The translations under genes were made by a program, and so were the position numbers. Shown one piece after another: positions 17,262 to 45,529 of a stretch of DNA of 64,000 bases (position 1 is the stretch's first letter; the number at the start of each line of letters is the position of its first letter). The notes beneath the pieces were generated by a model that was not told where the DNA came from, made no database searches, and saw nothing but the letters and a program-made list of their open reading frames with translations. Origin of the DNA: Magnetococcales bacterium HCHbin5 (GTDB lineage Bacteria > Pseudomonadota > Magnetococcia > Magnetococcales > Magnetaquicoccaceae); NCBI GenBank assembly GCA_002753505.1, contig PEAG01000003.1, positions 1 through 64,000 on the forward strand, written 5' to 3'.

Positions 17262-17472
17262 GGCGGATTAACCCATATTTTTCCGAATGGCAGCATGTCG
17301 AGCAACTCTCCCGTTGTGTATCGTAAACGCCGCAGATAAAATCTTTTGTTGCAGCGATTGCAAAAAATTAATATTGCAATGTAAGCAAAAATGGCAAATA
17401 ATCCCCACAGGAGATGGATGCCACCATTCCGGCATTATTGCTGAACCTCTGCGAGGCGTCACAGGATCTCTC
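17262..17472. promoter_or_regulatory. AT-rich divergent intergenic region
   Basis: 211-bp gap between topB and the binding-protein operon. The AT-rich centre (about 17340-17402) has repeated TTGCAA-like words and includes the candidate promoter annotated separately. No small gene is recognised. Confidence 0.5.
17374..17402 (+). promoter_or_regulatory. Shared promoter-like element, copy 1 (binding protein/kinase operon)
   Basis: TTGCAA (17374-17379), a 17-base spacer TGTAAGCAAAAATGGCA, then AATAAT (17397-17402): sigma70-like boxes at ideal spacing, 70 bases before the ATG at 17473. Over its 29 bases it matches the element at 31502-31530 (minus strand) in 26 positions. Two further copies (36353, 42467) share the boxes and the exact spacing. 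Confidence 0.65.
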
Positions 17473-24500: not shown

Positions 24501-26495
24501 CTTGCCAAACATCGGTTGGCGGAGGCGGCGGAGTTGATTGGCCTGCTGGTGGCGCGCAAGCAGGAGGAAGAGGTACTGAAGGAGAGCGAAACCCGTCTGC
24601 GGGAAATTGCTGCCACCTTGGCCGAGGGTCTGTTTGTGATTGACAGGGAAGAGCGGGTTACCTTTGTCAACCCCACGGCTCAGACCCTGTTGGGGTGGAC
24701 AGAGTCGGAGATGATGGGCAGGGCTGTTCATTCACTGCTGCATTCCATGGATAACATCTGTCCGATCGCCCACTGTCCCATCCGGGAGGTGGTGGCGAAG
24801 GGGCAGGTGGTCAATCGGGAAGAGATGCGGTTTCAGCGTCGGGATGGCACTCTCCTGCCCGTCAGCGTTGTGGCTTCGCCCATCATTCGCTTCGGTGAAG
24901 TGCGGGGTGTGGTGGTGGCCTTTCGGGATATTACCGAACGCTTGCGGATCGAGGAGTATTTGCGGCAAGCCAAGGAGCAGGCCGAGCAGGCTGCCCAGGC
25001 CAAAGGCGAGTTTCTGGCTGCCATGAGCCACGAAATTCGTACCCCCATGAACGTGGTGCTGGGCATGTCGGAACTGTTGCTGGAAGGTGACCTCAGTGCC
25101 CAGCAACGCCGATTTGCCCAGATCATGCACCATTCGGGCAAGGCACTGCTGGGGGTGATCAACGATGTGCTGGATTTTTCCCGCATCGAAGCGGGACATG
25201 TCGCCCTGGTTGAGCTGCCCTTTTCTCCACGGCAGATGGTGGAAGAGACGGCCCGTCTGATGCAGATTGCTGCCGAGGAGAAGGGGTTGCTGCTGGAGAC
25301 AGCGTTGGCTGATGGCATACCGGAGGCTGTGTTGGGTGATGACGGTCGGATACGGCAGGTGTTGATCAACCTGCTGGGCAACGCCATCAAATTTACCCAT
25401 CAGGGACGGGTAACGGTCGGCTTGGCCCTCTCTTCCAGCGAGCCGGGATTTCTGCTGTTTCAGGTGGCGGACACCGGTATCGGGATTGCGCCGGAACAGA
25501 TAGGCCAGGTTTTTGAGCGGTTTATCCAGGCTGATGCGGGCATTACCCGGCAATACGGCGGTACGGGTTTGGGGTTGACCATCTCCCGGCGGTTGGTGGA
25601 GTTGATGGGGGGGCGCATATGGGTGGAGAGCCAGGAGGGGCAGGGGAGTCAATTTTATTTTACGCTGCCCCTGCGGGTTGTGACACTTCCAACCGCTCCT
25701 GTCCCTGAAATATCCGCTGTTTCCCACGGTTCAGAGGCCCTTCGTATCCTGTTGGCAGAGGATGTCGAGGAAAATCAGGTGCTGTTTGAAGCCTATCTCA
25801 TGCAGACCGGCCACCAACTGGTCATGGTGAGCAATGGGTTGGAGGCGGTCGAGCGGGTGCAAAGGGAGCGGTTTGATCTGGTGATCATGGATGTGCAGAT
25901 GCCTGTCATGGATGGTTATACCGCCACCCGTCAAATTCGCCAGTGGGAACAGCAGACAGCGCGTATTCCGGTGCCGGTGATTGCCCTGTCAGCCCATGGC
26001 CGGGAGGGTGAGACAGAGCGCAGCCGGGAGGCTGGCTGTGATCACTACCTGTCAAAACCGATCAAAAAACAGGATTTGATCCAGTTTATCAGCCTGTTTG
26101 CCCGCCAAGAGCCGAGTTTGCGCATCCTGTTGGCGGAGGATGTTGAGGAAAATCGGGTGCTGTTTGAGGCTTATATCAGCCAGACCCCGCATCAGTTGGT
26201 GATGGTGGAGGATGGCCTGGAGGCGGTTGAGCGGGTACAAAAGGAGCCGTTTGACGTGGTGGTCATGGACGTTCAGATGCCCAAAATGGATGGTTATACG
26301 GCCACCCGGCAAATTCGTCGCTGGGAACAGCAGACGGCACGGAGCCCGGTACCGATTGTTGCCCTTTCAGCCCATGCCATGGAGGGGGAGGGAGAGCGCA
26401 GTCGGGAGGCTGGTTGTTCCAGGTATCTGGCCAAGCCGATCAAGAAAAAGGCACTGCTGGAGGTCTTGCAGGAGATCGCCAGCCGTAAGCTGTAG
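21579..26495 (+). CDS. Soluble multi-PAS hybrid histidine kinase with PocR-like domain
   Basis: 1638 aa. The ATG at 21579 overlaps the previous stop, with GAGGAA upstream. In order: receiver (Asp56), five PAS domains (about residues 140-790), a PocR-like sensory domain (about 790-990), a sixth PAS, HisKA ([10 protein letters not shown], His1151), HATPase, and two C-terminal receivers (Asp1438, Asp1564). The PocR-like domain has a Cys-rich core (LCHESC, then IECKGG, near residues 885-912) before AVPIRVGDRVIGGI. No membrane segments, so it is cytoplasmic. The last two receivers are near copies of each other, offset by 126 residues. Sharing an operon with the binding protein and membrane kinase suggests it integrates cytoplasmic cues into the same pathway. 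Confidence 0.92.
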   Translation: MSDALANILVVDDHAANRLALRKQLRVMPVQVIEAASGSQALELLQDHDFAMILLDVDMPEMDGFEVAAAVCQLKQTAHIPIILLTAAFKDHRHRLRGYACGAVDYLEKPFAEEILLSKVRIFLDLYQLRQAQTATLSSLRQSEAKYRAMVDHVGVGIVRVDMQGTILEVNAAFASLLGYRAQELTGCTVSQLTHPDDLPRSAELLQAMFAGRMPAFHLEKRYLAKNGTSVWGSVTVTLIAGTASEPPFCLASVENITQRKQQELQLRQLSQAVEQSPVSVVITDLQGNIQYVNPRFCQVTGYSRQEAIGQNPRILKSGATSPEAYQQLWQQITAGKEWRGEFANKRKNGELYWENAAISPILDAAGNISHFLGVKEDVTDRKLAEKALHQSELRFRMLAEQAQDLIYRYRFEPPGYEYVSPSATTLTGYTPAEHYADPQLGIKLVHPDDLPLLDRIEESFFQPLVLRWLRKDQTLLWTEQRNTPSFDDQGRLIAIDGIVRDITRRKQVEEGLEVAHRALQASEERLRSVLDNSPAVVYAKDLQGRYLFVNRRYEELFHVSNSDMAGKSDDDIFSSTVAATLQANDHLALTSPTPIQIDEIVPHRDGLHTYISVKFPLRDANGQPYAVCGISTDITERKRNEIELLAAKTAAESACQYARSLIEASLDPLVTISAEGKITDVNTAAERITGLNRDHLIGSDFAGCFTEPDQARAGYQQVFAQGFVTDYPLAVRHLSGKVTDVLANATIYRDSQGNILGVFAAARDITERKRAEAERAEMAKELRQLEWLLRPKTFSQGNFQPAYGDITRLNTNRTILSALGPETLTNIVSEFMGMLETSSAVYEINGDYAAGIFSAAWCQLMDGASYKLCASGDTRQALAGGQWLCHESCWTEATRPAIESGLPNDIECKGGIRLYAVPIRVGDRVIGGINFGYGSPPTNPEKLTELAERFQVDVEELDGCARLYQPRPQFVIDLAKHRLAEAAELIGLLVARKQEEEVLKESETRLREIAATLAEGLFVIDREERVTFVNPTAQTLLGWTESEMMGRAVHSLLHSMDNICPIAHCPIREVVAKGQVVNREEMRFQRRDGTLLPVSVVASPIIRFGEVRGVVVAFRDITERLRIEEYLRQAKEQAEQAAQAKGEFLAAMSHEIRTPMNVVLGMSELLLEGDLSAQQRRFAQIMHHSGKALLGVINDVLDFSRIEAGHVALVELPFSPRQMVEETARLMQIAAEEKGLLLETALADGIPEAVLGDDGRIRQVLINLLGNAIKFTHQGRVTVGLALSSSEPGFLLFQVADTGIGIAPEQIGQVFERFIQADAGITRQYGGTGLGLTISRRLVELMGGRIWVESQEGQGSQFYFTLPLRVVTLPTAPVPEISAVSHGSEALRILLAEDVEENQVLFEAYLMQTGHQLVMVSNGLEAVERVQRERFDLVIMDVQMPVMDGYTATRQIRQWEQQTARIPVPVIALSAHGREGETERSREAGCDHYLSKPIKKQDLIQFISLFARQEPSLRILLAEDVEENRVLFEAYISQTPHQLVMVEDGLEAVERVQKEPFDVVVMDVQMPKMDGYTATRQIRRWEQQTARSPVPIVALSAHAMEGEGERSREAGCSRYLAKPIKKKALLEVLQEIASRKL

Positions 26496-26510: not shown

Positions 26511-28985
26511 TCATGCTTCATCATTGACGCGATTCCGATCTTCTGTTGCTCGCCCAGCCGTGTACCGGGCCAATGCGGCCAACAAGGTCTGTTTTTTGAT
26601 CGGTTTGCCCAGATAGTCGTCAAAACCGTTGGCACGGCACCGTTCCGCATCACCCGCCATGGTATGAGCAGAGAGGGCAATGATGGTGACCGGTTTGTGC
26701 TGGGTCTGCTGTTCCCACTGCCGAATCAAAGCCGTCGCCTGCATCCCATTCAACACAGGCATCTCAATATCCATCAACACCAGGTCAAACACTTCATTTT
26801 GCACCCGTTGCACCCCCTCGGACCCGTTACAGGCCATGGCCAACGAGTAGGGGGTGTTGGAGAGATAAATCTCTATCAAGGCACGATTTTCCTCCACATC
26901 TTCCACCAGCAATATTTTCAGCGGCGGAGTCTCCTGCTCGATAGTGTGCGCGGGGGGAGGAGACTCCATCGGTTGCTGTGTGCCATCCACTGCCGCACGC
27001 AAGGGAAGGGTGAAGTGAAATCGACTGCCCTGACCAAATTCACTTTCAACCCGAATCGTGCCCCCCATTCGGCTCAACAACTGTTTGGTGAGGGGCAGGC
27101 CAAGGCCGGTGCCTCCATAACGCCTGGAGATGCCCGCATCGGATTGGCTGAAAAGCTCAAAAATTTTTTCCAAATGTTCCGGTCGAATGCCGATTCCACT
27201 ATCTGATATTGTACATTGCAGATCCGGCGGCTGGTTGTCATTTTGGCCAATGTCAACCACCACCCAGCCATATTCAGTAAATTTTATCGCATTGCCGACC
27301 AGATTGAGCAGACATTGCCGGAATCGCAGGCTGTCTGAAAGGATACGCTCTGGCAGGCGAGGATCCATTCGAAGTTCGAGCGACACCCCCTTTTTGTGGG
27401 CCAATACCTGGAGCATATGCACAACCTCCCCGGCCTCCTTTTGCACGGAAACGGCCTCTTCGACGATTTGCAGCTTGTTTGCCTCAACCTTGCTGAGGTC
27501 CAATATATCGTTGATCAACTGCAACAAATTGTCCCCGGCATTTTTTAACATGGTCATGTAGTGCCGCTGTTCCTGACTCAGCTCGGTACCGAGTACGACA
27601 TCACTCATGCCAAGGATAACATTCATCGGGGTGCGTATTTCGTGGCTCATGGCGGAAAGAAAGTCGGTTTTGGCGCGACTGGCCGCTTCTGCCTGCTCCT
27701 TGGCACGCAGCAATTCGCTCTGGGCCTCTTTCTGGGAAGTGATGTCGGTGATAAAGCCATGCCACAGGGTGGAGCCATCCGGCTCCCGCTCCGGGATGGA
27801 GTCACCAAACAACCAGCGTTCCGTGCCATCGGGGTAGCGTACCCGGAAGGCCTGTTGCCAGGGGCTGAGCTCTCTGGCAGAGCGCAGAATGGAGTCCATG
27901 ACCGCTGCATAATCGTCCGGGTGGGTGCGTTGCAGGACGGCAGTGGCATCCGCATGCACGTCACTGGGTTCCATCCGGTATATGTGGCGAATGGCCTCGC
28001 TGACATAGGGCAGGCAGGAGCTGCCATCGGGATGCAGACGAAACTGGTAAACCAGGCCGGGTACCCGGGAGGCAATTTTGTTCAGCCGCAGATAGGCCTC
28101 CTGGGTGTCGATTTCGAGCCGTCTGCTCTCAGCCCGCAGGGCGGTGATCACCAGGCTGACGACCGTATGGGTCAATATGTAGATCCAGAGGATGAGCAGG
28201 TTGTTTTTTTCATTCATGCTGAATGGGCCGTGCCCGATGGCGGTACCCCAGGCAGAGAGCACCGCGTCTGCCAGTACCGTCACGGAGGCACCGATGATGC
28301 CAAATCGCAAGGCAGCCCACATGACGATCAATACGGGTATATATGCCAACGTAAGATGGTTGGGCGCGAGGAAGATAAACCAGTTCAGACTCAGCAGGAG
28401 GATGGAGACCAGCGCAATTTCCACGCGCTGTTCATGGGTAAACTGGCAGGTTCTCGGAGACAGGGCAATCAGCGGGGGGGCTGCCAGCAGAACGCCAATG
28501 CAGTCTCCCATCCACCAGGTAAACCAGGCCGATTTCAGATCGGATGCGGGCAGAATATCATTCAGCCAAAGCAGAAACGTCCCGCCACTGGCCGATATGG
28601 TCATGCCTGCCATGGCCGTCAAAACCAGCCAGATGACATCAAACTTGTAGTCAAACTCCCAGTGAAAATCGACCCGACGCAACCCGTTTGCTGTCAACAA
28701 CGGCCCCAGGGTATTGCCCACCGCAATACCGGCTGCCAACAGGAGGGAGGAACCAATGCTCAAATTGGTCAACAGCGCACCGAGATAGACCGCCGGCCAG
28801 AGCCCGTTTCCCCAGCGCAGCAGTGCCGCCACGGCAATACCCGTCGGCAACCAGATCAGTGTGATGTGCTGGCCAATGGAGGGGATGGCCAGACCCAGTC
28901 GGCCGGAGAGATAGTAGGCCGATGTCACCAGCAAACAGCGGATGATCCATCGAGATGCAGAAAAGGACGACGACATTATGGCCAT
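26511..28985 (-). CDS. MASE1-type membrane hybrid histidine kinase
   Basis: 824 aa. The N-terminal 300 residues form a multi-helix MASE1 sensor (motifs such as TLIWLPTGIAVAALLRWG and TWWMGDCIGVLLAAPPLIAL). One PAS (about 310-430), HisKA ([10 protein letters not shown], His448), HATPase (GGTGLGLPLT) and a receiver (Asp739, in LVLMDIEMP) follow. It is the last gene of a five-gene minus-strand operon and converges on the multi-PAS kinase with a 15-bp gap. A second in-frame ATG at 28976 is possible; neither start has a strong ribosome site. Confidence 0.92.
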   Translation of the reverse strand: MAIMSSSFSASRWIIRCLLVTSAYYLSGRLGLAIPSIGQHITLIWLPTGIAVAALLRWGNGLWPAVYLGALLTNLSIGSSLLLAAGIAVGNTLGPLLTANGLRRVDFHWEFDYKFDVIWLVLTAMAGMTISASGGTFLLWLNDILPASDLKSAWFTWWMGDCIGVLLAAPPLIALSPRTCQFTHEQRVEIALVSILLLSLNWFIFLAPNHLTLAYIPVLIVMWAALRFGIIGASVTVLADAVLSAWGTAIGHGPFSMNEKNNLLILWIYILTHTVVSLVITALRAESRRLEIDTQEAYLRLNKIASRVPGLVYQFRLHPDGSSCLPYVSEAIRHIYRMEPSDVHADATAVLQRTHPDDYAAVMDSILRSARELSPWQQAFRVRYPDGTERWLFGDSIPEREPDGSTLWHGFITDITSQKEAQSELLRAKEQAEAASRAKTDFLSAMSHEIRTPMNVILGMSDVVLGTELSQEQRHYMTMLKNAGDNLLQLINDILDLSKVEANKLQIVEEAVSVQKEAGEVVHMLQVLAHKKGVSLELRMDPRLPERILSDSLRFRQCLLNLVGNAIKFTEYGWVVVDIGQNDNQPPDLQCTISDSGIGIRPEHLEKIFELFSQSDAGISRRYGGTGLGLPLTKQLLSRMGGTIRVESEFGQGSRFHFTLPLRAAVDGTQQPMESPPPAHTIEQETPPLKILLVEDVEENRALIEIYLSNTPYSLAMACNGSEGVQRVQNEVFDLVLMDIEMPVLNGMQATALIRQWEQQTQHKPVTIIALSAHTMAGDAERCRANGFDDYLGKPIKKQTLLAALARYTAGRATEDRNRVNDEA

Positions 28986-29087: not shown

Positions 29088-30044
29088 TCAGGCTGTTCCT
29101 GCTGGGCGGCTATCGTCCAGAGGAAGGTTTGTGATTTGACTATAAAACCGGTAGCAGTTTTTTCCCTGCCTCTTTGCCATGTACATGGCATGATCCGCCT
29201 GTTTTAACAGGGGCTCCATTGCCTCACTGTCCTGTGGAAACAGGGCGATTCCTACACTGCCGGAGATGGTGGCCGTATGACCATGGAGATCGAAAGGTCT
29301 GGACAAGGCGGACAAAATTTTACGTGCCACCATCTCGGGGTCCATGGGCAGCGAGAGGCTGGATAAAATCATGGTAAACTCATCACCTCCCATGCGGGCC
29401 ACCGTGTCGGAGCGGCGTACACACTCCTTCAGGCGATCAGCGACCTGGCGCAGCAGGGCATCCCCCGCAGCATGTCCCAGGCTGTCATTGACCTCCTTGA
29501 AGCGGTCCAGGTCTATGAACAGCACAGCCAGATGCTCCTGGTTGCGTCGGGCCAGGGAGAGGGCTCGCTCCAGCCGGTCCATGAACAGGTTACGATTGGG
29601 CAGATCGGTCAGAGTGTCAAAGGTGGCCTGGTAACGTATGGTGGCCTCTGCCTTGCGTCGTTCCATGAAAAGCCGGATGCGTTGCCGCAGCACCGCCCAG
29701 TGAACCGGTTTGGTGACATAATCATCGGCACCGACCTCAAAAGCCCGATCCACTGATTCATCGTCAGACAAGCCAGTCATCATCAGGATCGGCACCCGGG
29801 CACCGCCAGCCAACTTGCGAATGGTGTCACAGGCCGAAAAACCGTCCATGAACGGCATGCTGACATCCAGCAGAATCAGGTCCGGGGATGCCTGGGCGAA
29901 CAGATCAATCGCTCCCTGCCCATCCTGGGCGACGATGATGTCATACCCCTCTTTTTTCAGAAACCTGGACAGTATTGCCAAGATACACTCATCATCATCG
30001 ACGACGAGGATGACGGGATTTTTTGGCATCTCAGCCCACTGCAT
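29088..30044 (-). CDS. Response regulator with diguanylate cyclase (GGDEF) output
   Basis: 318 aa. Receiver (Asp60 in LILLDVSMP) followed by a GGDEF domain that makes cyclic di-GMP from two GTP. The catalytic motif is intact (GGDEF 219-223). The inhibitory I-site is present as RRSD five residues upstream, so feedback inhibition by c-di-GMP is expected. No EAL domain. A G-rich ribosome site precedes ATG 30044; an alternative is ATG 30029. Fourth gene of the operon, so a phosphorelay here probably ends partly in c-di-GMP. Confidence 0.94.
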   Translation of the reverse strand: MQWAEMPKNPVILVVDDDECILAILSRFLKKEGYDIIVAQDGQGAIDLFAQASPDLILLDVSMPFMDGFSACDTIRKLAGGARVPILMMTGLSDDESVDRAFEVGADDYVTKPVHWAVLRQRIRLFMERRKAEATIRYQATFDTLTDLPNRNLFMDRLERALSLARRNQEHLAVLFIDLDRFKEVNDSLGHAAGDALLRQVADRLKECVRRSDTVARMGGDEFTMILSSLSLPMDPEMVARKILSALSRPFDLHGHTATISGSVGIALFPQDSEAMEPLLKQADHAMYMAKRQGKNCYRFYSQITNLPLDDSRPAGTA

Positions 30045-30081: not shown

Positions 30082-30588
30082 TTACCCACGCAGAGGCGCA
30101 CTGGCCGTTTTCTGAAAGAATGGAGGCGGAGGGCCGGATGCCGCACAATATTTTTTTAATTCCCGATGTGCCCAGGCGCCGGCTGCAATCAACTGCCCGA
30201 CCAAAGGTTCGGCCTCGGCGAGTCTGCCCGTCCGACCAATGGCCTCCAGGTTGGCAGCCACCTGCCCCATCTGGGTGAGGCCAAGCTGTTTGCAAACACT
30301 TTTGAAGGAGTGACTCTCCCTGGCCAGCAGTTCCGGGTCATTTGCCTGCAGTGCCAGACTGATTTTTTCCGGACGGGCCAGCATTCCAGCCTGGAAGTGT
30401 TGCATAACCGTGGAAAAACTGTCACCCAGCTCTTGCTTCATCTCGGTCAGCATGGCAAAGTCCAGGGTGTTGCCACTGTCTGAATTGCGAGTATCACACT
30501 CCTGGAGGGCCATCGGCCCGCTTGGAACCGGCCGCAACGGTCCCGCTCCGGTATCCGGGCTGTTTTGTGCGGGTTGAGTATTGTTCAT
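30082..30588 (-). CDS. Stand-alone histidine phosphotransfer (Hpt) protein
   Basis: 168 aa. Residues 40-150 form an Hpt four-helix bundle with motif HSFKSVCKQLG (phospho-acceptor His93). A Pro/Ser-rich head and a Pro-rich tail flank it. It starts 2 bp after the receiver gene's stop, with GAGG in the coding tail of that gene. The probable role is to shuttle phosphate between hybrid-kinase receivers and the separate receivers of this operon. Confidence 0.9.
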   Translation of the reverse strand: MNNTQPAQNSPDTGAGPLRPVPSGPMALQECDTRNSDSGNTLDFAMLTEMKQELGDSFSTVMQHFQAGMLARPEKISLALQANDPELLARESHSFKSVCKQLGLTQMGQVAANLEAIGRTGRLAEAEPLVGQLIAAGAWAHRELKKYCAASGPPPPFFQKTASAPLRG

Positions 30589-30590
30589 CT

Positions 30591-30989
30591 CTATGCCTCT
30601 TTTCTGATTGGGCTGTTTGTGGGTTGAAGAGCCCGTGCAACCTTTCTGATCACATCCGCCGTGCGAAAAGGTTTGGCAATGACATCAACCGCTCCGAACC
30701 CTCGCGCCATCCTGAGGCTTAATTGTGCATTCATCGCCTTGTACCCACCGGAAATGGCGATAATCTTGCTGTCCGGGTAACGACTCAGGATGGATGTCAG
30801 CAGATCCATACCGTCCATCTCCGGCATGAAGATGTCGGTGATGATCAGATCTACAGAATTTTTTTTCAAAATTTGCAATGCTGTCCGGCCATTATCCGCT
30901 TCTATGACCGTGTGATTGACACGTCTCAGAACGCCGGACAGTAACGCCCGCATCAGTTCGTCATCATCTACTAGCAGAATATGAGCCAT
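30591..30989 (-). CDS. Single-domain response regulator (CheY-like)
   Basis: 132-aa receiver without output domain: acidic pocket VDDDE, phospho-acceptor Asp52 (IITDIFMP), Ser/Thr in IAISGG and Lys in IAKPFRT. Paralogue of the next upstream receiver (31028-31405), with which it shares the TDIFMP and ISKPFK-type motifs. Probably a phosphate carrier or target in a relay with the adjacent Hpt protein. Confidence 0.93.
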   Translation of the reverse strand: MAHILLVDDDELMRALLSGVLRRVNHTVIEADNGRTALQILKKNSVDLIITDIFMPEMDGMDLLTSILSRYPDSKIIAISGGYKAMNAQLSLRMARGFGAVDVIAKPFRTADVIRKVARALQPTNSPIRKEA

Positions 30990-31027: not shown

Positions 31028-31405
31028 CTATGGTGCCTCCTGGAGAACACTGGCAACGGTATGAATCACCTCATTCATCTTGAAAGGTTTACTGATCAAG
31101 CCTATCGCCCCCAATTTTTCCGCCACACCCAACGCCAAACTTTGACTCATGCCTGATCCTCCACCAGACATCGCAATGATTTTGTGGTCCGGACGCTCTT
31201 TCAGGAGCAGAGAGAGCAGCTCCAGACCATCCATCATTGGCATGAATATATCGGTGATAAAGAGATCAATATGATGCCGCGCCACCTGTTCCAGGCACTC
31301 CAGCCCACTGCCAGCCTCCTGTACCGTGTAGCCAGCACGTTTCAGCAGTTCACTCAGATAGATGCGGGAAAGGTCATCGTCATCAACCACCATGATACAA
31401 GCCAT
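31028..31405 (-). CDS. Single-domain response regulator (CheY-like)
   Basis: 125 aa. The ATG at 31405 was chosen for the strong AGGAGGAG ribosome site seven bases upstream; the open frame runs 32 codons further. Receiver with VDDDD pocket, Asp52 (FITDIFMP), Ser in AMSGG and Lys in ISKPFK. First gene of a five-gene operon (REC, REC, Hpt, REC-GGDEF, MASE1 kinase), 96 bases downstream of a shared promoter-like element. Confidence 0.93.
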   Translation of the reverse strand: MACIMVVDDDDLSRIYLSELLKRAGYTVQEAGSGLECLEQVARHHIDLFITDIFMPMMDGLELLSLLLKERPDHKIIAMSGGGSGMSQSLALGVAEKLGAIGLISKPFKMNEVIHTVASVLQEAP

Positions 31406-31501
31406 TTTTTGCTCCTCCTGACCGACCACTCTGCGCATGCTAAAAGTTTTTTCAGGCAGCTCAAACGCAACCGGACACATCTTTGAGAGGCTGACGTCCA
31501 C

Positions 31502-31530
31502 ATTATTTTCAATTTATGCTTACATTGCAA
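31502..31530 (-). promoter_or_regulatory. Shared promoter-like element, copy 2 (five-gene relay operon)
   Basis: Read on the minus strand: TTGCAA (31530-31525), spacer TGTAAGCATAAATTGAA (17 bases), AATAAT (31507-31502), 96 bases before the ATG at 31405. It matches the element at 17374-17402 in 26 of 29 positions, including most of the spacer. That is more than promoter boxes alone require and suggests a common operator. Confidence 0.65.
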
Positions 31531-31691
31531 GAAAAATTCACTCAAGAGCTGTTTTTTTTCTGAAATTTCTTGCTTTGCATACATAGATCTCTTACTGTAT
31601 TTCCTGTGTTTGCTTTATTTGCAAGATTGTGCTGCCGGGACAGGGTGGCCGAAAAGTATGCAGAACACTTGGTTACACAGGTGAAACAATC

Positions 31692-32324
31692 ATGAACATG
31701 AAGGAACCAGCTGATTTATCTGACATCGTCATCACCACATCCAAGGCGGCTCAGTTGCTGGGCGTCTCCCAGCGAACCGTGCATTATTGGATGGATCGAG
31801 GTGCCATAAAATTCTGGAAAACAGCGGGGGGCCATTTCCGCATTCCCATGAGTTCCATCAATCAGATGCTGGCGAGGCGTCAGGAGGAGTTGTCGGAGTC
31901 GGATCAGCCTGCCATTACTGTTTTGCTGGTAGAGGATGATGTGGATTTGCAGGAGATCGCCAAAGAGGTCGTGACCAATTGGGGCTGGCCGGTGCGACTT
32001 GTGGTGGCAGGCAATGGTTTTGACGGTTTGATACAGATGGGCATGCACAGGCCTGAGGTGATCATCACGGATTTGTTGATGCCTGCCATGGATGGGTTTC
32101 AGATGATCAAAAGTCTCAGGGGGGTGCCGGACCTCAGTGCATCGCGCATCGTTGTGGTGACGGGGATGGATGACCAGCAGATCGCAGCCAGCGGCGGTCT
32201 GCCGGATGAGGTGGAGCTGCTGCACAAGCCGACCCCTTACGATCGGCTGAAAGAGATTGTACGGGATGTTTTGCGCAACCACAGCCGGGGCAAATATGCC
32301 GTGACCCGGGCCAAATCCGTTTAG
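31692..32324 (+). CDS. Response regulator with N-terminal excisionase/MerR-type HTH
   Basis: 210 aa. ATG 31692 (AGGTG upstream) was chosen over the open frame beginning at 31629. Residues 14-62 form a small winged HTH of the excisionase/MerR type (SKAAQLLGVSQRTVHYWMDR, then GGHFRIP). Residues 76-200 are a receiver with Asp127 (VIITDLLMP), Thr in VVVTGMD and Lys in LLHKPTP. The order DNA-binding then receiver is the reverse of OmpR or NarL regulators. It is the only DNA-binding regulator in the signalling island and is transcribed alone, divergently from the relay operon. It is a candidate regulator of the four shared promoter elements; this is inference. Confidence 0.9.
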   Translation: MNMKEPADLSDIVITTSKAAQLLGVSQRTVHYWMDRGAIKFWKTAGGHFRIPMSSINQMLARRQEELSESDQPAITVLLVEDDVDLQEIAKEVVTNWGWPVRLVVAGNGFDGLIQMGMHRPEVIITDLLMPAMDGFQMIKSLRGVPDLSASRIVVVTGMDDQQIAASGGLPDEVELLHKPTPYDRLKEIVRDVLRNHSRGKYAVTRAKSV

Positions 32325-32368: not shown

Positions 32369-34735
32369 TCAAGCCATCGTGGAAGCGAGAAACTGTTCCA
32401 GTTCCCGTTGGACGCGCCGGCCCTCCGTCAGAATCTCCTCCAACATGGCCGGGATTTTTTCTGTGGCACCGCCCTGCGCCACATGCCGCTCCAGGTTGGC
32501 ACAACATCCGGCAAACCGTGCTGCTCCGTAGGTGGCCGAGGTTCCTTTCAGCTTGTGGGAAGCCTGCCGCAATGCCTCCCAGTCCTTTGCCTGCCAGGCA
32601 GCGGAGAGCGCGTCCAGTCGGGCCGGAAAATTTTTCAGGAACAACGATACAACCCGCTCAAATCCCGGCCCGGTCTCCTCTCGCAGTTGATCGAGGAGGG
32701 GGAGACGGATGGCGTCGGATTCCGTTGGTGTGCCGTCAGGGGTGGGGAGTGTCGTCGTCGGGTTTGCAGCCGAACCTTTGCGGGCAAAATGATCGATGGC
32801 CTCCAGCAAACTGGAGCGGCGCAGCGGTTTGCAAAGATGGCGGTCACAACCGGCGGCCAACGTCTCCTCCATCTCCTCCTTCATGGCATTGGCCGTCAGT
32901 GCAATGATCGGGGTGCGGCTCATGTTTCTGGCCGCCTCAATGGACCGAATGTGCCGGGTTGCTTCCAAACCGTCCATGCCAGGCATCATCATGTCCATGA
33001 ACACCAGGTCAAAGGCTTGGGCGTTGAACAGTGCAATGGCCTCTGTGCCGCTGGTCGCTCCCACGATCCGGTGGGGGCTGTTGGCCAGAAAAGCCTCAAC
33101 CACCAACCGGTTGTCTTCCACGTCATCCACCAATAAAATCCGCAGACTGGCTGCCGGGTCAGCCGACGGCAAAAGCTGATCTGTGCCGGTGACTCCGGCC
33201 GGGGCCTGTGCCGCAGGTGCTGCCTCAACCCATGGCAACCGTGCGGTAAAACGGAACACGCTGCCTTGACCCACCCGGCTCTCCACCCAAATCTTGCCCT
33301 TCATCATTTCAACCAGTTGGCAACAGATGCTCAACCCCAATCCCGTGCCGCCAAAGCGACGGGTGGTGGAGTTCTCCGCCTGAACAAAGGGTTGAAAAAT
33401 GGTGTCCAGTCTGTTGTCCGGGATGCCGATTCCCGTGTCTGAGACGGCAAAGCTTATTTGATCATCGGACCCGGTCTCAACCTGCAATGAAATACGTCCC
33501 TGCTCGGTAAACTTGACCGCATTGCTCAAAAGGTTGAGCAAAATCTGGCGCAGACGCTGGGGGTCGCCCTGCACCTGTGCCGGCAAATCTGTCGCCAACG
33601 AACAACTCAACGCAATGCCCTTGGCACGGGCGGTCTCGGCCACAATGGCCATCGCCTGCCGGGCCTCTTCCGCCGGAGAAAAGCGTATGCTTTCCAGATT
33701 CAGTTGGCCCGCTTCAATCTTGGAAAGGTCCAGAATATCGTTGATCAGTGCCATGAGGCTGTTGCCAGCCCTGTTGGCAATGGCCAGAAACCTTTTTTCC
33801 TGCTGGGAGAGACGTGGTGAGAGCAGCAACATCTCTCCCATGCCCAGAATGGTATTCATGGGGGTGCGGATTTCATGGCTCATGGTGGCGAGAAAACGGC
33901 TTTTGGCCTGATTGGCCGCTTCGGCCTCCTGTTTTGCCGCCCGCATGGCCTGTTCAAGCAGCGTGCGCTCGGTAATGTCGATCACAACGCCATTCCAAAC
34001 GCTGTCGCCACTCCTTTCCAGACGGGGAACCGATTCAATGTGAATCCAGCGAACCTGGCCGGCCACCAGAAAACGCCCGATCCACAAAAACGGTTGCCGT
34101 TTTTCGCCAGCCTCCTGGTTGAGACGGATAAAGTTTTCCAACTCCTCGGGATGAACCGCCTTGAACGCATGGGCAGCATCACGCAGCACAGCCTGACGGT
34201 CAAGGCCCAACAGACGACAAAAAGGCTCACTGACATACTCAAAAGTCATACTGCCGTTGGCACGGATGCGAAAGGTATAAATGCCAACCGGGATGCGTGC
34301 TGTCAGCTCCTCATAGGCTTTGCGCAACCTGTCGGATTCGGCCCGGCTGTTGTACAGTCGCAAAAACAGGCTGACCTTGGCACGCAACACCTCCTCATTG
34401 ATGGGCTTTTCGATATAGTCAATCGCACCGGATCGATACCCCTCAATGCGATGGGCGGCATCCCGGTAGGCTGCTGTAATGAACAGGATGGGTACCTCTT
34501 TGGTCCGCTCCAATGTTTGCGCAATGCGCGCCACCTCAAATCCATCCATCCCGGGCATGCTGACATCCAGCAACATCAGTGCAATGTCAAACTCCAACAT
34601 CAGTCCAAGGGCTGCATTGCCAGACAGTGCCTCAATAATATGGGCGTCCATCGGGGACAAAACAGCCCGCAACGCCTTCAGGTTGGCGGGCTTGTCATCC
34701 ACAATCAATATGTTGGGCTGTATTGCCTCATCCAT
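32369..34735 (-). CDS. Soluble hybrid kinase REC-PAS-HisKA-HATPase-REC-Hpt
   Basis: 788 aa. ATG 34735 has GAGGAG seven bases upstream. N-terminal receiver (Asp57), one PAS (about 145-265), HisKA ([10 protein letters not shown], His287), HATPase (GGTGLGLSIC), second receiver (LVFMDMMMPGMDG) and a C-terminal Hpt domain with HKLKGTSATYG. The full internal relay His-Asp-His is present, so the final target could be any free receiver nearby. No membrane segment. Third gene of a minus-strand operon, 41 bp after a CheY-like gene. Confidence 0.93.
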   Translation of the reverse strand: MDEAIQPNILIVDDKPANLKALRAVLSPMDAHIIEALSGNAALGLMLEFDIALMLLDVSMPGMDGFEVARIAQTLERTKEVPILFITAAYRDAAHRIEGYRSGAIDYIEKPINEEVLRAKVSLFLRLYNSRAESDRLRKAYEELTARIPVGIYTFRIRANGSMTFEYVSEPFCRLLGLDRQAVLRDAAHAFKAVHPEELENFIRLNQEAGEKRQPFLWIGRFLVAGQVRWIHIESVPRLERSGDSVWNGVVIDITERTLLEQAMRAAKQEAEAANQAKSRFLATMSHEIRTPMNTILGMGEMLLLSPRLSQQEKRFLAIANRAGNSLMALINDILDLSKIEAGQLNLESIRFSPAEEARQAMAIVAETARAKGIALSCSLATDLPAQVQGDPQRLRQILLNLLSNAVKFTEQGRISLQVETGSDDQISFAVSDTGIGIPDNRLDTIFQPFVQAENSTTRRFGGTGLGLSICCQLVEMMKGKIWVESRVGQGSVFRFTARLPWVEAAPAAQAPAGVTGTDQLLPSADPAASLRILLVDDVEDNRLVVEAFLANSPHRIVGATSGTEAIALFNAQAFDLVFMDMMMPGMDGLEATRHIRSIEAARNMSRTPIIALTANAMKEEMEETLAAGCDRHLCKPLRRSSLLEAIDHFARKGSAANPTTTLPTPDGTPTESDAIRLPLLDQLREETGPGFERVVSLFLKNFPARLDALSAAWQAKDWEALRQASHKLKGTSATYGAARFAGCCANLERHVAQGGATEKIPAMLEEILTEGRRVQRELEQFLASTMA

Positions 34736-34776
34736 GGCTCTGCTCCTCACAGGTAACCCAGACTCCGTTACCACAC

Positions 34777-35181
34777 CTAGATAAGGCCATGATTTTTCAT
34801 CTTTTCCAACAACTCATCCCGGGTAACGGGTTTCGTGAGATAGCCATTACAATGTCCTTTCTTGAAAGCGGTGATGAAGGTTATGGGATCATCCAGACTG
34901 GTTTGCATGATAATGCAAGCAAAATCCTTGGTATTCAAAGTGGGGCCGTACACCCGCCTTTCCATCAAACGCATCTGCACCAGGGCCTGTTGGCCGTCCA
35001 TGAAGGGCATTTCAATATCCAACAGCACCAGTCGAAAGGGATCCTTGCGCTCCAGTGCCTCGGCAAAGGCCTGAACAGCCTGCTCACCATCTTCAACCAC
35101 AACGCACTCACCAAACGGTTGCAGCATGGCATGCAGGGTTGCCCGGTAAATTTTCTGATCGTCGGCAATTAAAATTTTCAT
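34777..35181 (-). CDS. Single-domain response regulator (CheY-like)
   Basis: 134-aa receiver: IADDQ pocket, Asp55 (LVLLDIEMPFMDG) and Lys in YLTKPVT. AGGTGAAG precedes the start. It lies 11 bp after the REC-kinase gene and before the REC-PAS-kinase gene, so it is a likely phosphorylation target of one or both. Confidence 0.92.
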   Translation of the reverse strand: MKILIADDQKIYRATLHAMLQPFGECVVVEDGEQAVQAFAEALERKDPFRLVLLDIEMPFMDGQQALVQMRLMERRVYGPTLNTKDFACIIMQTSLDDPITFITAFKKGHCNGYLTKPVTRDELLEKMKNHGLI

Positions 35182-35192: not shown

Positions 35193-36311
35193 CTATTGCC
35201 GCAAGGTGACCGTGATGGTGGTCCCCTCGAGCTCCGAGCTGTGCAAGGCAATCTGCCCCTGCTGGGTCTCTGCCATCAGGCGGGAGGAGTAGGTTCCCAG
35301 ACCGGTTCCACCCCTCTTGCCATGGGTGACATATTTTTCAAAAAATTTTTCACGGATGGCCTCGGGAACGGCACCCTGGTTATGAATGGCGATGGTGGCC
35401 CTCTGGTCGCCGTTGCCTAAAGCGATCGTTATCGCCTCTCCCGTCCCAGAGGCCTCCATGGCATTTTTGCACAGATTGGCAAACATGGTATAACAGAGGG
35501 TTTTGTCCCCCAGAACGGTAAAGGTTTGCCCCTCTTGCAGCCGTTGGCCGTCCACGGTTATGACAGCCGTCAGCTGTTTTCTGTCAATCCATACCCGATG
35601 GTCCGCCAAAATACGTTGCAAGATCGGCACCAGTGAGATCTCTTGCAACTGGGCCTCATAGCGTCCCTGTTCCATATTGATCAGATTCATCGACATGTTG
35701 ACCATCTCCTGCAACCGGTTGGCCGAGTCACGGATCATCAGGAAAAACTCTCTTTGCTCCGATGGAGCGAGTTGATCATCCTCCAGCAACAGCTCTGAAC
35801 AACCCAGAATGCCGTTGATGGGGGTTTTGAGATCGTGGCGCGAAATGGCCTCCACATCCTTGCGCAACCTTTCCATCTCCTGCAGGGCAATATATTGCTG
35901 TTTGAGTTGGGCATGCGCCGCGTGCATGGCCAGGTGGGTTGCCACCCTGGCCATGACAACCGGAATGCTGAACGGCTTGGAGATATAATCCACTGCTCCC
36001 GCATCAAACCCCCGGGTCTCATCTTCTGCCTGATCCTTGGCGGTGATAAAAATGACCGGGATCTCCCGCGTGACCGGGTTTGCCTTCAACTGCTCACAGA
36101 CCTCAAAACCATCCATCTCAGGCATCATCACATCCAGCAGGATCAGGTTTGGCAACGGCGCAACCGTCGCTGCCTTCAGAGCCACCTTGCCATTGATGGC
36201 TGGCCGGACGGTATACAGCTCACCCAATACCCTTTTCAGAATGGCAATGTTTTCCGGGGAATCATCCACGACCAGGATGGTACTGCGTGGCGGGTTTGCC
36301 TCATTTTCCAT
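35193..36311 (-). CDS. Soluble REC-histidine kinase
   Basis: 372 aa: receiver (Asp60 in LILLDVMMPEMDG), HisKA-like helix pair with H-box SRHDLKTPING (His159) and HATPase with N-box NLCKNAMEAS and G-box GTGLGTYSS. The phospho-acceptor His is followed by Asp-Leu-Lys rather than Glu-Ile/Leu-Arg. The same family is found in the 515-aa protein at 36434, with shared stretches such as FFEKYVTHGK. Input is presumably phosphorylation of its own receiver, so the protein acts as a relay node. Confidence 0.9.
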   Translation of the reverse strand: MENEANPPRSTILVVDDSPENIAILKRVLGELYTVRPAINGKVALKAATVAPLPNLILLDVMMPEMDGFEVCEQLKANPVTREIPVIFITAKDQAEDETRGFDAGAVDYISKPFSIPVVMARVATHLAMHAAHAQLKQQYIALQEMERLRKDVEAISRHDLKTPINGILGCSELLLEDDQLAPSEQREFFLMIRDSANRLQEMVNMSMNLINMEQGRYEAQLQEISLVPILQRILADHRVWIDRKQLTAVITVDGQRLQEGQTFTVLGDKTLCYTMFANLCKNAMEASGTGEAITIALGNGDQRATIAIHNQGAVPEAIREKFFEKYVTHGKRGGTGLGTYSSRLMAETQQGQIALHSSELEGTTITVTLRQ

Positions 36312-36352: not shown

Positions 36353-36381
36353 ATTGTTTTCAGTATATACCAATATTGCAA
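36353..36381 (-). promoter_or_regulatory. Shared promoter-like element, copy 3 (REC-kinase operon)
   Basis: Minus strand: TTGCAA (36381-36376), spacer TATTGGTATATACTGAA (17 bases), AACAAT (36358-36353), 41 bases before the ATG at 36311. The boxes and spacing equal the other copies; the spacer is less similar. An extended -10 form (TTGGTATATACT) inside the spacer is an alternative reading. Confidence 0.5.
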
Positions 36382-36433
36382 GCTCAATTTTCCGCACAAT
36401 CCACGCTTCCTGCCACCTCTCGCTGATACGGTT

Positions 36434-37981
36434 TTATGCGGTTCGCTGGGCAATCTGTTGAAGCGTATCCAGCAATTTTTGTTTTCGGATCGGTTTGGCA
36501 AGTAACTGGCAGTATCCGATCTCCAGGATGGCAGAGTTGTCTTCGGCCTCGGTTTGACCGGAAAGGATCACGATGGGCACGGGCGTGCGGCCCACCCTTT
36601 GTTCCCATTGGCGAATTCGACGAACAGCGGTAATGCCGTCCATGACCGGCATCTGAACATCCATGACCACGACATCAAAGGGGGGCTCTTCCTGCACGCG
36701 GGAGAGTGCTTCCATCCCGTTGCTGACGATGACCAGCTGGTGTGCGGTATGCGCCAGATAGGTGGCAAGCAGAAGCTGATTCTCCTCCGTATCTTCCGCC
36801 AGCAGAATGTGCAGGCCCTTGGTTGCGGTTTGCCCCGGATTGACAGCCGTCACAACAGGGGTTCTGGGGAGGCTGACAATAACGGAAGTTTGACCCGCCT
36901 GACTGCTGTCCAGCTTGACCCGGCCACCCTGGATGCGTGCCGCCAGTTGCGCCGAATAGGTTCCCAGTCCTGTGCCATAGGTTTTGCCGTGGGTGACATA
37001 TTTATTGAAAAATGTCTGCCGGATGGCCTCCGGCACCTCCCCAGAGTTGGTGATCCGAACAATCCCGACCTGATCAGCCGTTGTCAGGTGGATCGATATG
37101 GTTTCATGATTCGCAGAGGCTTCGATGGCATTCAGAATCAGATTATAGAACAGGGAATAACAGAGCATTTTTTCCCCCGTCACATAAAAAGAGGCGGGTG
37201 TGCTGGACAATGCCGGATCCTGGATCTCAACATGGATGCCTCTGGGATGGATCTGTTTGCCAAGATCCCCGACGATATGCTGCAAAACATCCAGCAGATC
37301 AAACCACTCAGGTTGGAGCTGATAACTGCCATTTTCCATCTTGAACAGATCCAACGACCTGTTGAGCATCTCCAGTATGAGATAGCCGCTTTTCTCAATC
37401 TGCCTCAGCAGGGCCTGTTGTCCTTCAGTAAAGACGCCGTCTGCCAGCAAAACCTCCGGCAGGCCCAGGACGGCGGAGAGTGGGCCTTTGATGTCGTGAT
37501 GGGAGATACGTTCCACATCCTCACGAATTTTTAATGCCTGCTGGAGGGCTTTGTTTTTTTGATGCAGCTCCTGTTTGGCGCGTTGGTAGGCAATGGTGTT
37601 TTGACTTCTGGCTACCAATACCGCCGGACTGCTGGGCTTGCGGATAAAATCCACCGCTCCCAGCTCCAGACCGAGCGATTCATCCTCCTGGGAATCCTTG
37701 CAGGTCAAGAAGATGACCGGGATTTTGCGTGTCGCCGGATGCGCCTTTAACTGTCGGCAAACCTCATAGCCATCCATTTCCGGCATCAGAATATCCAGCA
37801 GGATCAGATCAATCTCGTCGGCGGCGGCGATGGGAACCACCTGCTCCCCCCGAATGGCAACCTTGACCAGAAAAAAACGGTCCAGCGCGGCCTTGAAAAT
37901 TTTTATCTGATCCGGTTGATCGTCAACCAACAGGATGGTGCCTGCCCTGGCTTTTGATTTTGGAGACGGTGGCTGGATCAT
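36434..37981 (-). CDS. Soluble REC-kinase-REC hybrid
   Basis: 515 aa: N-terminal receiver (Asp63), H-box SHHDIKGPLSAVLG (His162), HATPase (NLILNAIEAS, GTGLGTYSA) and C-terminal receiver ([12 protein letters not shown]). The kinase core is paralogous to that of the neighbouring 372-aa protein. The C-terminal receiver belongs to the same subfamily as those of the multi-PAS and MASE1 kinases (RIRQWEQ motif). GAGGAG lies four bases before the ATG. It begins 22 bp after the 1454-aa kinase and probably shares its transcript. Confidence 0.92.
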   Translation of the reverse strand: MIQPPSPKSKARAGTILLVDDQPDQIKIFKAALDRFFLVKVAIRGEQVVPIAAADEIDLILLDILMPEMDGYEVCRQLKAHPATRKIPVIFLTCKDSQEDESLGLELGAVDFIRKPSSPAVLVARSQNTIAYQRAKQELHQKNKALQQALKIREDVERISHHDIKGPLSAVLGLPEVLLADGVFTEGQQALLRQIEKSGYLILEMLNRSLDLFKMENGSYQLQPEWFDLLDVLQHIVGDLGKQIHPRGIHVEIQDPALSSTPASFYVTGEKMLCYSLFYNLILNAIEASANHETISIHLTTADQVGIVRITNSGEVPEAIRQTFFNKYVTHGKTYGTGLGTYSAQLAARIQGGRVKLDSSQAGQTSVIVSLPRTPVVTAVNPGQTATKGLHILLAEDTEENQLLLATYLAHTAHQLVIVSNGMEALSRVQEEPPFDVVVMDVQMPVMDGITAVRRIRQWEQRVGRTPVPIVILSGQTEAEDNSAILEIGYCQLLAKPIRKQKLLDTLQQIAQRTA

Positions 37982-38003: not shown

Positions 38004-41000
38004 TTATTCCATACCTGTTTCTGCCAACGGAACGCCAGAGGCCTCTGCCCATTGCCGCAACAGTTTCAAAGAGGCCTCGTAGTCAAAATCATCCAAAGAG
38101 TGCTTGATGGTGCGCAGATGCGCACGATCCTGGCTGCTTTTTACCACTTCTTCCATCGCTTCGACAACGGTTTCCACGTCGGAATTAAAATGGGACAGAT
38201 ATTCTGCCGCCTGTTTGAACAGTGGTGTCAGGGCCGCGATGTCTGTTGTGCCCTCTTCTGCGGGGGGAGTCTCTTCGGACGGTTTGGGCATTGCCTCATC
38301 CAGCATGACAAGTACGCTGTCCAACTCCCTGGAGGTCTGTTCTATCAGGGCCTGGAGTCGCTCTCTCCCCATGCCAGAGCCAGCTCCATGCTCAATCTTT
38401 TGGGCTGCATCCCGCAGGTCGGTGGCACCGATGGTGGCCGCCACCCCCTTCAGCGTGTGCCCCGTACGCTCCAGGGTCGACCACTCCCCGGCATTCAGCA
38501 GATCGGTCATGGTACGACAGGCATCCCGCTGGTTTTGGACAAACTTGGCCAGAATGTCCCAATACAAGGGGAGGCTGCCCCCCATGTTGCGCAGACCGGC
38601 CCGGGTGTCGAGACCCGGCAGATGGGGGAGCGAATCCACTCCTTCCGTCGGCATGTTGTCAGATACCGCTTCCGGCCCAGGGACGCTGACAGCGGGGAGC
38701 CATCTGGCCAATACGGCGTAAAGATTGCGGGGATCTATCGGCTTGGATACATAGTCGTTCATGCCCGCTGCCAGGCAGATCTCCCGGTCTCCCTTCATGG
38801 CATTGGCGGTCATGGCGATAATGGGCAGATCCCGGAATTGCTCCTGTCGCCGAATACGACGGGTCGCCTCATAGCCGTCCATGACAGGCATCTGAACATC
38901 CATCAGGACAATGTCAAATGGTAATTGCTGAATTTTTTCAATCGCTTCCATTCCATTACCAGCAATCTCTATCTGCAATCCTGCATGAGCCAGAATGCCC
39001 TGCGCCACCTCCTGATTGATCTCGTTGTCGTCCACCAGCAACACTTTACCGTTGATGGTGGTGGCGGGCAGATCGGTTTCAGTCACGGAGGTCTGATGTC
39101 CACCGATCGCATTGGGTATCATCTCCAGCAGGGCAGATGCGGTAATCGGTTTGACCAACAGGTGGGGAATGCCCTGTCGCAAGGAGGAAGACATCACCTC
39201 TTCCCGGCCATAAGCGGTAATCAAAATCACCGGCGGTGCCTGTTCCCCCAATGTTGTCCGCATCTGGCGTACCGCCTCCAGACCATCCATGACTGGCATG
39301 CGCCAGTCCATCAGGACCAGACCAAAGGGATCTGCACTGGCGGCAGCCTGGACGATCTGGTTGACGGCCTGCTTGCCATCCTCGGCCTCATCCACCCGAC
39401 AGTGGAAGGGTAACAGCATATCCCGGCAGACCCGGCGGGCGACCGGATGGTCATCTGCCACCAGAATGTGCAACCCGTCAAGCTGGGGAGCGTTTACCTG
39501 GGGATCGGTGAAATTTTTGCTGTCCGCCAGCGGAAATGCGAGTTGAAAACTGAAAACACTGCCCTGTTCCGGCTCACTGGTCACGCGCAGCCTGCCTCCC
39601 ATCATCTCCACCAGATGGCGACTGATGGCCAGGCCCAGGCCGGTACCACCAAAACGGCGCGTGGTGGAGGTATCAGCCTGGGTAAAGGCATTGAACAGGT
39701 TGGCCATCTGTTCGGGTGTCATGCCGATACCGGTGTCCCGGACCCGAAAATCTATGGTGGCCTGCTCCGCAGTCAAATCGGCCAGCAGGATTTCAAAACA
39801 GACCTCGCCCTGCTCGGTAAACTTGACGGCATTGCCCACAAGGTTGAGCAGAACCTGCCCCAGACGCAACGGATCCCCTATCAGCAGGGCAGGAATGCGG
39901 TGATCCACCGAGGCAATCAGCTCCAGGGATTTATCCTGAGTCTTGGGGGCTGCCATGGCAGCCACCTGGTCAGCCACCTTGTCCATGGAAAACGGGATCG
40001 ACTCCATGGTCAGTTTGCCGGCTTCTATCTTGGAAAAATCGAGAATATCGTTGATAATGTGCAACAAGGAACGGCTGGCTTGGTCTATGCGGCTCAAAAA
40101 ATGGCGTTGCTCCGTGGTCAGGTCGGTTTTTGCAGCCAGGTAGACCATGCCGGTGATGGCGTTGATGGGGGTGCGGATTTCATGGCTCATGTTGGCCAGA
40201 AAGCCGCTCTTGGCCTGGGTGGCCACTTCGGCCGCCTCCTTGGCCTGCTGCAAGGCAATTTCAGACTCTTTGCGTTCGGTAATATCCAACAGAGTGCCGA
40301 CCATGCGCTGGGACTGGCTCCCATCCTGGGACTGCACAATGGCCCCCTTGGAAACAACCCACCTGAGTTGTCCATCCGGGGTGCGGATGCGATACTCCAC
40401 CTCATAGCTGGCACGCTGTCCCTGTTTGTACGCATTGCCAATCTCTTTCACCCGCTCCCGATCCTCGGGGTAGATGCTTTCGTACCACCAATCGCGATCA
40501 ATGGGGAGTGATTTATCACTGGCAAAACCGAGAATCTCCTTGTAGCGGCTATTGACCACAGTCTGCCCCGTCGTCATGTCCGCATCCCAGAAGCCCAGAT
40601 TGCCCCCTTTCAGGGCCAATTCCTGGCGTTCCTGACTGATTCGCAGCAGCGTTGTGCGCTCTTCCAGTGCCACACTGTTGCGGTGCAAGACCAGGTAGTA
40701 GACCAGCATCAACAGGCTGACCAGCAGAGAGATGAGAATCCCAAACATTCGGTTGATCTGGTCCGTTTTTTCGTGTTTCAGCATCAGAACCGACCAGCCA
40801 TCCGGGTTGATCTCAACCCGTCCCACCCAATGCTGGTTTCGGTGTTTTCGGTCCGTCATGTGGAGTTTGCTGCCATGCGCGGGTTCTGTGTTGAACAGGG
40901 GATGGTTGTTGGAGAGCAGCCCGAATTGCTTGGATTCGTTCAATCGGGCCAGCGTTACCGGAGAGAGGGGCCACAAAGGCTGGGGGGTAAACCCCGCTTT

Positions 41001-42368: not shown

Positions 42369-42466
42369 GATACTCCACCGATTACATCTGGGTTTTTTAT
42401 TGAACTGGGTTCTCTGTCCAACGGTTGCCAAGCGATTGTGAACTGCTTCCCCCATACCCGATATGG

Positions 42467-42495
42467 ATTGTTTTCTCTTTTTGCCAAAATTGCAA
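42467..42495 (-). promoter_or_regulatory. Shared promoter-like element, copy 4 (1454-aa kinase)
   Basis: Minus strand: TTGCAA (42495-42490), spacer TTTTGGCAAAAAGAGAA (17 bases), AACAAT (42472-42467), 98 bases before the ATG at 42368. It shares boxes and spacing with the other three copies, the GGCAAAAA core with copy 1 and the GAA spacer end with copies 2 and 3 (GGCAAAAA only in part). Confidence 0.5.
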
Positions 42496-42544
42496 CATTT
42501 TTTTTCTCAGCCCTGGCTGTTTTTGCCAATTTATCCTATTGACG

Positions 42545-45526: not shown

Positions 45527-45529
45527 GTC

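Follow-up and report, generated by a model that had tools for sequence, protein, structure and literature searches.

A single gene for a predicted DNA-binding response regulator lies amid a dense group of phosphorelay genes in the stretch of 64,000 nucleotides (the window) analyzed here from contig PEAG01000003.1 of Magnetococcales bacterium HCHbin5, which raises the question of which DNA sites this regulator reads and which genes it controls. A preliminary description of the locus had named it as the best candidate to act on four DNA elements shared within the group.

Domain architecture and fold of HTH-REC

The HTH-REC gene (31692 to 32324, + strand, ATG start), delineated by domain search and modeling, encodes a protein of 210 aa. 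A winged HTH (wHTH) of the HTH_17/excisionase/BldC type (31731 to 31880, + strand, residues 14 to 63, assigned with Pfam and an alignment to BldC) precedes a receiver (31920 to 32261, + strand, residues 77 to 190). Pfam matched these residues to HTH_17 (E = 6.8e-12) and Response_reg (E = 2.1e-14), confirming the order HTH first, receiver second that had been noted before, and residues 14 to 58 matched TIGR01764 "excise" (E = 1.6e-10). The complete set of phosphorylation residues claimed in the preliminary description was likewise found, namely, acidic E81/D82/D83, phospho-acceptor D127, T157, and K179. D82, D127, and K179 were invariant across 36 HTH-REC homologues, and T157 was read in the window protein. 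With an Asp acceptor, an acidic pair, Thr/Ser, and Lys, HTH-REC is, as judged from its residues, a two-component response regulator. AlphaFold2 predicted two confident domains (mean pLDDT 89.2, pTM 0.66). Membership in the classical MerR family was rejected because the Pfam MerR score remained below its cut-off (27.1 versus 28.2 bits), a receiver stands in place of an effector domain, and the promoter spacer is 17 bp; MerR_1 passed its cut-off (24.5 versus 21.6).

The seven best PDB matches of the HTH model (pLDDT 84.9) in Foldseek were all BldC, followed by RacA and later by Xis. The matches to BldC had E values of 1.1e-3 to 3.9e-3, and the fold support is therefore modest (TM 0.66 to 0.68 by query length, rmsd 1.0 to 1.2). 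BldC of Streptomyces (PDB 6AMA and 6AMK), the nearest PDB fold, binds head to tail along direct repeats of 9 bp according to excerpts of PMC5859096, whose authors also point out the likeness to Xis. Like BldC, HTH-REC has an autonomous wHTH for which head-to-tail stacking is possible; in the alignment with 6AMA and 6AMK, its recognition helix is TVHYW and its wing GGHFR. Among 84 HTH-RECs, the BldC residues Trp31 (77/84), Thr42 (77/84), Gly44 (80/84), His46 (79/84), and Arg48 (82/84) were kept. The BldC interface, as given in the same excerpts, consists of Phe21, Val23, Trp31, Leu43, and an Arg22-Glu16 salt bridge, with position 43 uncharged (PMC5859096). Hydrophobic residues at positions 21 and 23 together with Trp31 were mostly kept among the 84 proteins, and position 43 is Ala in the window protein, Pro or Ala in 63/84, and Gln or Glu in 13/84. 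The salt bridge is absent from HTH-REC, position 22 being Gly in 78/84, and BldC Arg30 corresponds to Tyr in the window protein. BldC reads AATTXXXX(C) in the excerpted text (PMC5859096), whereas the repeat of the window HTH-REC is TTTGCnnnn. BldC, of about 70 aa, is a wHTH alone. The receiver fused behind the wHTH is the reason why HTH-REC was not filed as a BldC member.

We know of no DNA site for the merR-type HTH-receiver protein of Colwellia. The receiver of that protein alone was solved (PDB 3CNB) and matches the receiver of HTH-REC, and the protein was likened to HTH-REC by the depositors' title for the entry, a merR-type DNA-binding response regulator. LtrR-like regulators, which are archaeal, were likened to the window protein by domain order alone, as they share the HTH-before-receiver order, and no repeat operator is described for them in the excerpted part of PMC5847659. 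By the 3CNB title and these archaeal proteins, the order itself is not new. The DNA-binding fold is also shared with the excisionases Xis and RdfS (PDB 4J2N and 8DGL), which, unlike HTH-REC, are DNA mobility proteins without receivers. In a literature search largely limited to papers outside subscription, no description of a receiver-fused BldC-type regulator acting on 9-bp repeats was found.

Signaling cluster and its predicted promoter elements

Over the roughly 25 kb around the gene (17473 to 42455), Pfam counted 18 receiver domains (2+3+1+1+1+1, 2+1+1+2+2, and 1), exactly the number given in the preliminary description. HTH-REC was also borne out as their sole DNA-binding protein, no second DNA-binding domain being found in the cluster proteins scanned with Pfam. 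The + strand encodes the periplasmic solute-binding protein SBP (SBP_bac_8 by Pfam, 17473 to 18756) and the hybrid histidine kinases HK939 (HAMP-HisKA-HATPase-2 REC, 18763 to 21582) and HK1678 (PAS array, HisKA, HATPase, 3 REC; 21459 to 26495, with the true start possibly further inside the called ORF). The − strand encodes a MASE1-PAS hybrid kinase (26511 to 28985), a REC-GGDEF diguanylate cyclase (29088 to 30044), an Hpt protein (30082 to 30588), and the single-domain receivers REC132 (30591 to 30989) and REC131 (31028 to 31423, with an ATG preceded by AGGAG at 31405). Beyond HTH-REC, the − strand continues with the hybrid kinase HK801 (PAS-HisKA-HATPase-2 REC-Hpt, 32369 to 34774), a single-domain receiver (34777 to 35181), RECHK372 (REC-HisKA-HATPase, 35193 to 36311), RECHK515 (HisKA, HATPase, 2 REC; 36434 to 37981), and HK1483 (dCache-PAS-HisKA-HATPase-2 REC-Hpt, 38004 to 42455). 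Two further window ORFs, at 12179 to 15235 (+ strand, 1018 aa) and 44771 to 46747 (− strand, 658 aa), had no Pfam match; a homologue of the former with 53 to 55% identity lies beside HTH-REC in loci L069 and L070.

The four shared elements, given without coordinates in the preliminary description, were equated here with the sites at 17372, 31502, 36353, and 42467. They are candidate 31-bp promoter/operators in which three 9-bp units overlie a TTGCAA-N17-AAYAAT promoter. Element 1 (ATTATTTGC CATTTTTGC TTACATTGC AA, 17372 to 17402, − strand) coincides with the predicted promoter of SBP-HK939-HK1678 on the + strand and has an extra TTGC-N5-TTGCAA pair beside it (17349 to 17363, + strand). Element 2 (ATTATTTTC AATTTATGC TTACATTGC AAGA, 31502 to 31532, + strand, E = 4.8e-8) has on its opposite strand the predicted promoter TTGCAA-N17-AATAAT leading to REC131-REC132-Hpt-RECGGDEF. 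Elements 3 (ATTGTTTTC AGTATATAC CAATATTGC AAG, 36353 to 36383, + strand) and 4 (ATTGTTTTC TCTTTTTGC CAAAATTGC AAC, 42467 to 42497, + strand) coincide with the predicted − strand promoters of RECHK372 and HK1483. On the opposite strand of all four, TTGCAA-N17-AATAAT or AACAAT was present, 12 to 79 nt before the ORF starts used.

A matrix built from three window sites recovered the four shared elements and a fifth copy. This candidate own operator, with the 9-bp repeats TTACTGTAT TTCCTGTGT TTGCTTTAT TTGCAAGA (31596 to 31626, + strand), was detected by lag-9 scoring, the matrix, and a sequence model. It is positioned at and just 3' of the −10 of the predicted HTH-REC promoter (31570 to 31598, + strand), which was read as TTGCTT (31570 to 31575), N17, and TACTGT (31593 to 31598). 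Its lag-9 score of 11.0 was reached in 0/200 shuffles, and its matrix score was 20.8 versus a best score of 16.3 in five shuffled windows; under sequence model R1, it was a weaker fifth copy of the element (E = 0.038). Given this related repeat, the earlier claim that the HTH-REC promoter lacks the element on its own strand is wrong. A palindromic motif, TTGC-N7-GCAA (7 in the window versus 2.5 expected), was dropped because 9-bp direct repeats explain more and TTGCAA is itself palindromic. Two-unit sites were also discarded, three units in 9-bp phase having revealed the third window element and the own-promoter copy.

Repeats and recognition helix across the family

HTH-REC was matched at E ≤ 1e-20 in 41/61 genomes (own included), nearly always at full length, which makes the observation more than chance, and at E ≤ 1e-30 in 69/398 genomes of the phylum. 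The gene lies within a conserved signaling cluster in many Magnetococcales genomes. In close relatives it is divergent from REC131-REC132-Hpt-RECGGDEF and near homologues of HK801, SBP-HK939, HK1483, or RECHK372/515. Plasmid-borne HTH-REC genes (L213 to L216) were seen in Methylomagnum, Phaeobacter, Limnohabitans, and Ideonella, with a 9-bp array in Ideonella alone. Two HTH-less proteins of one genome (G002:C333:21257-21646 and G002:C26:1361-1786) have receivers 61 to 71% identical to that of HTH-REC, and one of them has a weak element upstream (L189).

A 29-bp pattern drawn from the four sites, and thus recovering them by design, matched the 4.19-Mb genome four times with ≤2 mismatches, each time within this cluster, against 0 in the control. 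Within this genome, model R1 gave two further weak hits, C65 (E = 0.08) and C112 (E = 0.5), neither of which drives a recognized target. Across 17 genomes, R1 gave 24 hits at E ≤ 0.005, 13 of them, at 12 places, outside the HTH-REC clusters. Each of these 12 places borders a gene for a solute-binding protein, kinase, or receiver and is oriented as its promoter would be; in L200, the element falls within the called start of a kinase. Second-tier hits retrieved from relatives (E = 0.01 to 0.14) were mixed, with a kinase (L205), a cytidylate kinase-like protein with a receiver (L207 and L212) or alone (L203 and L206), an ankyrin (L202), glucose isomerase (L209), no clear target (L204), positions inside ORFs (L208 and L210), and a wrong orientation (L211). 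The Cytidylate_kin2 proteins next to weak elements (L207, 157 to 1359, − strand; L212, 1670 to 2875, + strand; L203; L206) include two fused to a receiver (L207 and L212); as the output domain of a two-component system, this kinase-like domain is unusual. Of six genomes outside the family, five had no R1 hit and the sixth a single weak one, and the 31-bp element is therefore a close-family feature.

Genome G004 had 12 element hits, some before kinases (C47, C191, C445, and others), and HTH-REC was not found in its assembly, through an assembly gap or loss. No clean relation was found between the presence of HTH-REC and the genome-wide TTGC-N5-TTGCAA count (78 in G004, where HTH-REC was not found, and 66 in G003). 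The sole exact genome-wide hit of the QL-type repeat in G045 and G035 was the HTH-REC gene itself, and the TTTACG-type repeat of G020 had one further copy, differing by one mismatch, between two kinase genes in the HTH-REC cluster; variant-repeat patterns in G041 gave 33 and 14 background hits. The refuting observation named in the preliminary description, orthologues found without the motif, applied to the letter only: the 31-bp element was absent outside the closest relatives, whereas many orthologues had a differently spelled 9-bp array.

Upstream of the HTH-REC gene in the window and of the 17 orthologues closest to it (L039 to L055), TTGC pairs at exactly 9 bp numbered 30 versus 0.73 in dinucleotide shuffles, and in 23 more distant loci (L056 to L078) 24 versus 0.76, many of the latter coming from the L059 array. 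In that locus (G030:C129), 7 to 8 near-perfect tandem copies of TTGCAAGAT occur in the interval separating the HTH-REC gene from a homologue of HK1483. The density of TTGC-N5-TTGC was 4.25/kb in the 300 nt upstream versus 0.125/kb elsewhere in the same loci. Where TTGC was mostly lost (L061 to L078), lag 9 was still the commonest for repeated 5-mers (58 versus a mean of 5.5), with units including TGCGAGAAA, ATTTACGAT, TTTGATAAN, TACTTCCAC, and AATTATCCA. Tested per locus (P ≤ 0.01, 200 nt upstream), a significant repeat had lag 9 in 21/41 loci of the first set and lag 18 in 12/41 (remaining lags, 0 to 3); in a later set of unseen loci, lag 9 was found in 16/40 and lag 18 in 4/40 (remaining lags, 0 to 2). 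Lag 9 was also significant in 2/3 gammaproteobacterial and 1/4 plasmid loci, giving a phylum-wide total of 40/88 with the remaining lags near zero, counts that are partly inflated by relatedness. No significant 9-bp array was found upstream in 48/88 loci, including 3/4 plasmid loci; two QLW loci of family f55 (L147 and L148) had no 9-bp array. Control upstream regions of the same loci had lag 9 in 10/153 cases; by position, 7 of these 10 were HTH-REC's own intergenic region and 1 was an HK801 promoter containing TTGC repeats. The repeat conserved upstream of the HTH-REC gene is the strongest evidence that the protein may bind the elements.

The spelling of the repeat varied with HTH-REC residues 31 and 32, which correspond to BldC residues 29 and 30 by alignment and the numbering in excerpts of PMC5859096. 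In 84 loci, these residues were set against the phased word upstream, the words having been picked after inspection of L016 to L078 and some after the later set. Phased TTGC occurred in 16/23 HY loci versus 3/61 others, phased TGAT in 7/11 QL loci versus 3/73 others, TCCA in 4/10 loci with R at position 32 versus 1/74 others, and TGTC in 3/3 KG loci. Counted by family-class units, HY/TTGC (7/7 versus 3/33, P = 6e-6) and QL/TGAT (5/8 versus 3/32, P = 0.004) were retained; the R class (TCCA), significant by loci, and the KN/KS classes reached no significance by these units. Helix and word switched together within the single families f13 and f8, as in f13 with HY/TTGC in L050 and QL/TGAT in L069 and L070. 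In the later set, QLW fitted in just 2/4 loci (L145 and L150), and Ideonella L216 was an exception, with a QL helix and TTTGC repeats. The repeat thus appears to track residues 31 and 32, HY with TTGC and QL with TGAT, in an imperfect code.

Proposed role and alternative explanations

With the domain architecture, the repeats and their 9-bp spacing, the helix covariation, the promoter overlap, and the closeness to signaling genes all visible in the sequence, HTH-REC is probably a BldC-type response regulator that controls its own gene and its own sensors. Copies of the protein would stack head to tail along the 9-bp direct repeats, the window type reading TTGC. They would occupy the repeat at the −10/start region of their own promoter, leading to negative autoregulation, and the three-unit operator spanning −35 to −10 of four phosphorelay promoters (SBP-HK939-HK1678, REC131-REC132-Hpt-REC-GGDEF, RECHK372, and HK1483). 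Repression is favored because the operator covers −35 to −10 and the own copy lies at and below −10; the sign of regulation is a guess, as is the effect of phosphorylation. The local kinases, suggested by gene neighborhood, may phosphorylate D127 and alter the cooperativity of HTH-REC on the arrays and thereby the level of each sensor. The relay's only DNA-binding protein would then tune the relay's own sensors in a closed loop, with c-di-GMP from REC-GGDEF maybe serving as the outward signal.

The most plausible variant, compatible with the binding part of this explanation and tentatively possible, is that HTH-REC is an activator whose filament of head-to-tail copies deforms the DNA lying between −35 and −10 in the manner of MerR-type activators. 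The MerR-like fold, the location of the element in the core promoter, and the imperfect −10 AAYAAT are consistent with it. Against it, the spacer is 17 bp versus the 19 to 20 bp given for MerR-type control in excerpts of PMC1526738, the own-promoter array overlaps the transcription start, which suits repression, and the promoter reported in the excerpts on BldC, whiI, is repressed (PMC5859096). An unlikely alternative is a general relay output with many genome-wide targets reached through degenerate or two-unit sites. TTGC-N5-TTGCAA indeed occurs 27 times in the genome versus 2 for the reversed control, but the full element is found in the cluster only, and the weak hits C65 and C112 have no recognized target. 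With the full element so confined, the role looks more like control of sensor and relay genes than genome-wide output. The preliminary proposal was upheld in part, with good comparative support for HTH-REC as the best candidate to act on the elements.

It is improbable that the 31-bp elements serve solely as TTGCAA-N17-AAYAAT promoters for a single, perhaps alternative, sigma factor, with incidental phasing and HTH-REC binding elsewhere. The same promoter with a 17-bp spacer does lie on the opposite strand of 4/4 elements, 12 to 79 nt before ORFs; against this stand the differently spelled 9-bp arrays upstream of HTH-REC genes that follow the recognition helix, the own-promoter array at and downstream of −10 and outside any TTGCAA-AAYAAT frame, and the dominance of exact lag 9 over all lags. 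A role in DNA mobility, as a receiver-bearing excisionase or recombination directionality factor, would account for the TIGR01764 "excise" match and for the Xis folds among the PDB matches. This function was rejected as very improbable, as no integrase was found among the window proteins scanned (part of the window ORFs), the gene lies in a conserved signaling context in many Magnetococcales, and the repeats lie in promoters of signaling genes. The 9-bp arrays upstream of HTH-REC genes elsewhere, the covariation with the helix, and the BldC fold uphold HTH-REC as the best candidate for the four elements.

Beyond the autoregulating, sensor-controlling HTH-REC of this window, the HTH_17-REC proteins of the Pseudomonadota may form an undescribed class, a reading that we regard as evenly balanced as a whole. 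Its members would form BldC-type filaments set by phosphorylation, use a two-residue code (HY-TTGC, QL-TGAT, xR-TCCA, and KG-TGTC), and ancestrally control their own gene and sensor kinases. If true, this would join response-regulator phosphorylation with BldC/Xis-type head-to-tail stacking along 9-bp repeats of variable number, so far described separately. A large uncharacterized group of regulators would gain a predicted DNA site readable from the recognition helix, and the cluster would offer a testable case of a phosphorelay setting the dose of its own sensors.
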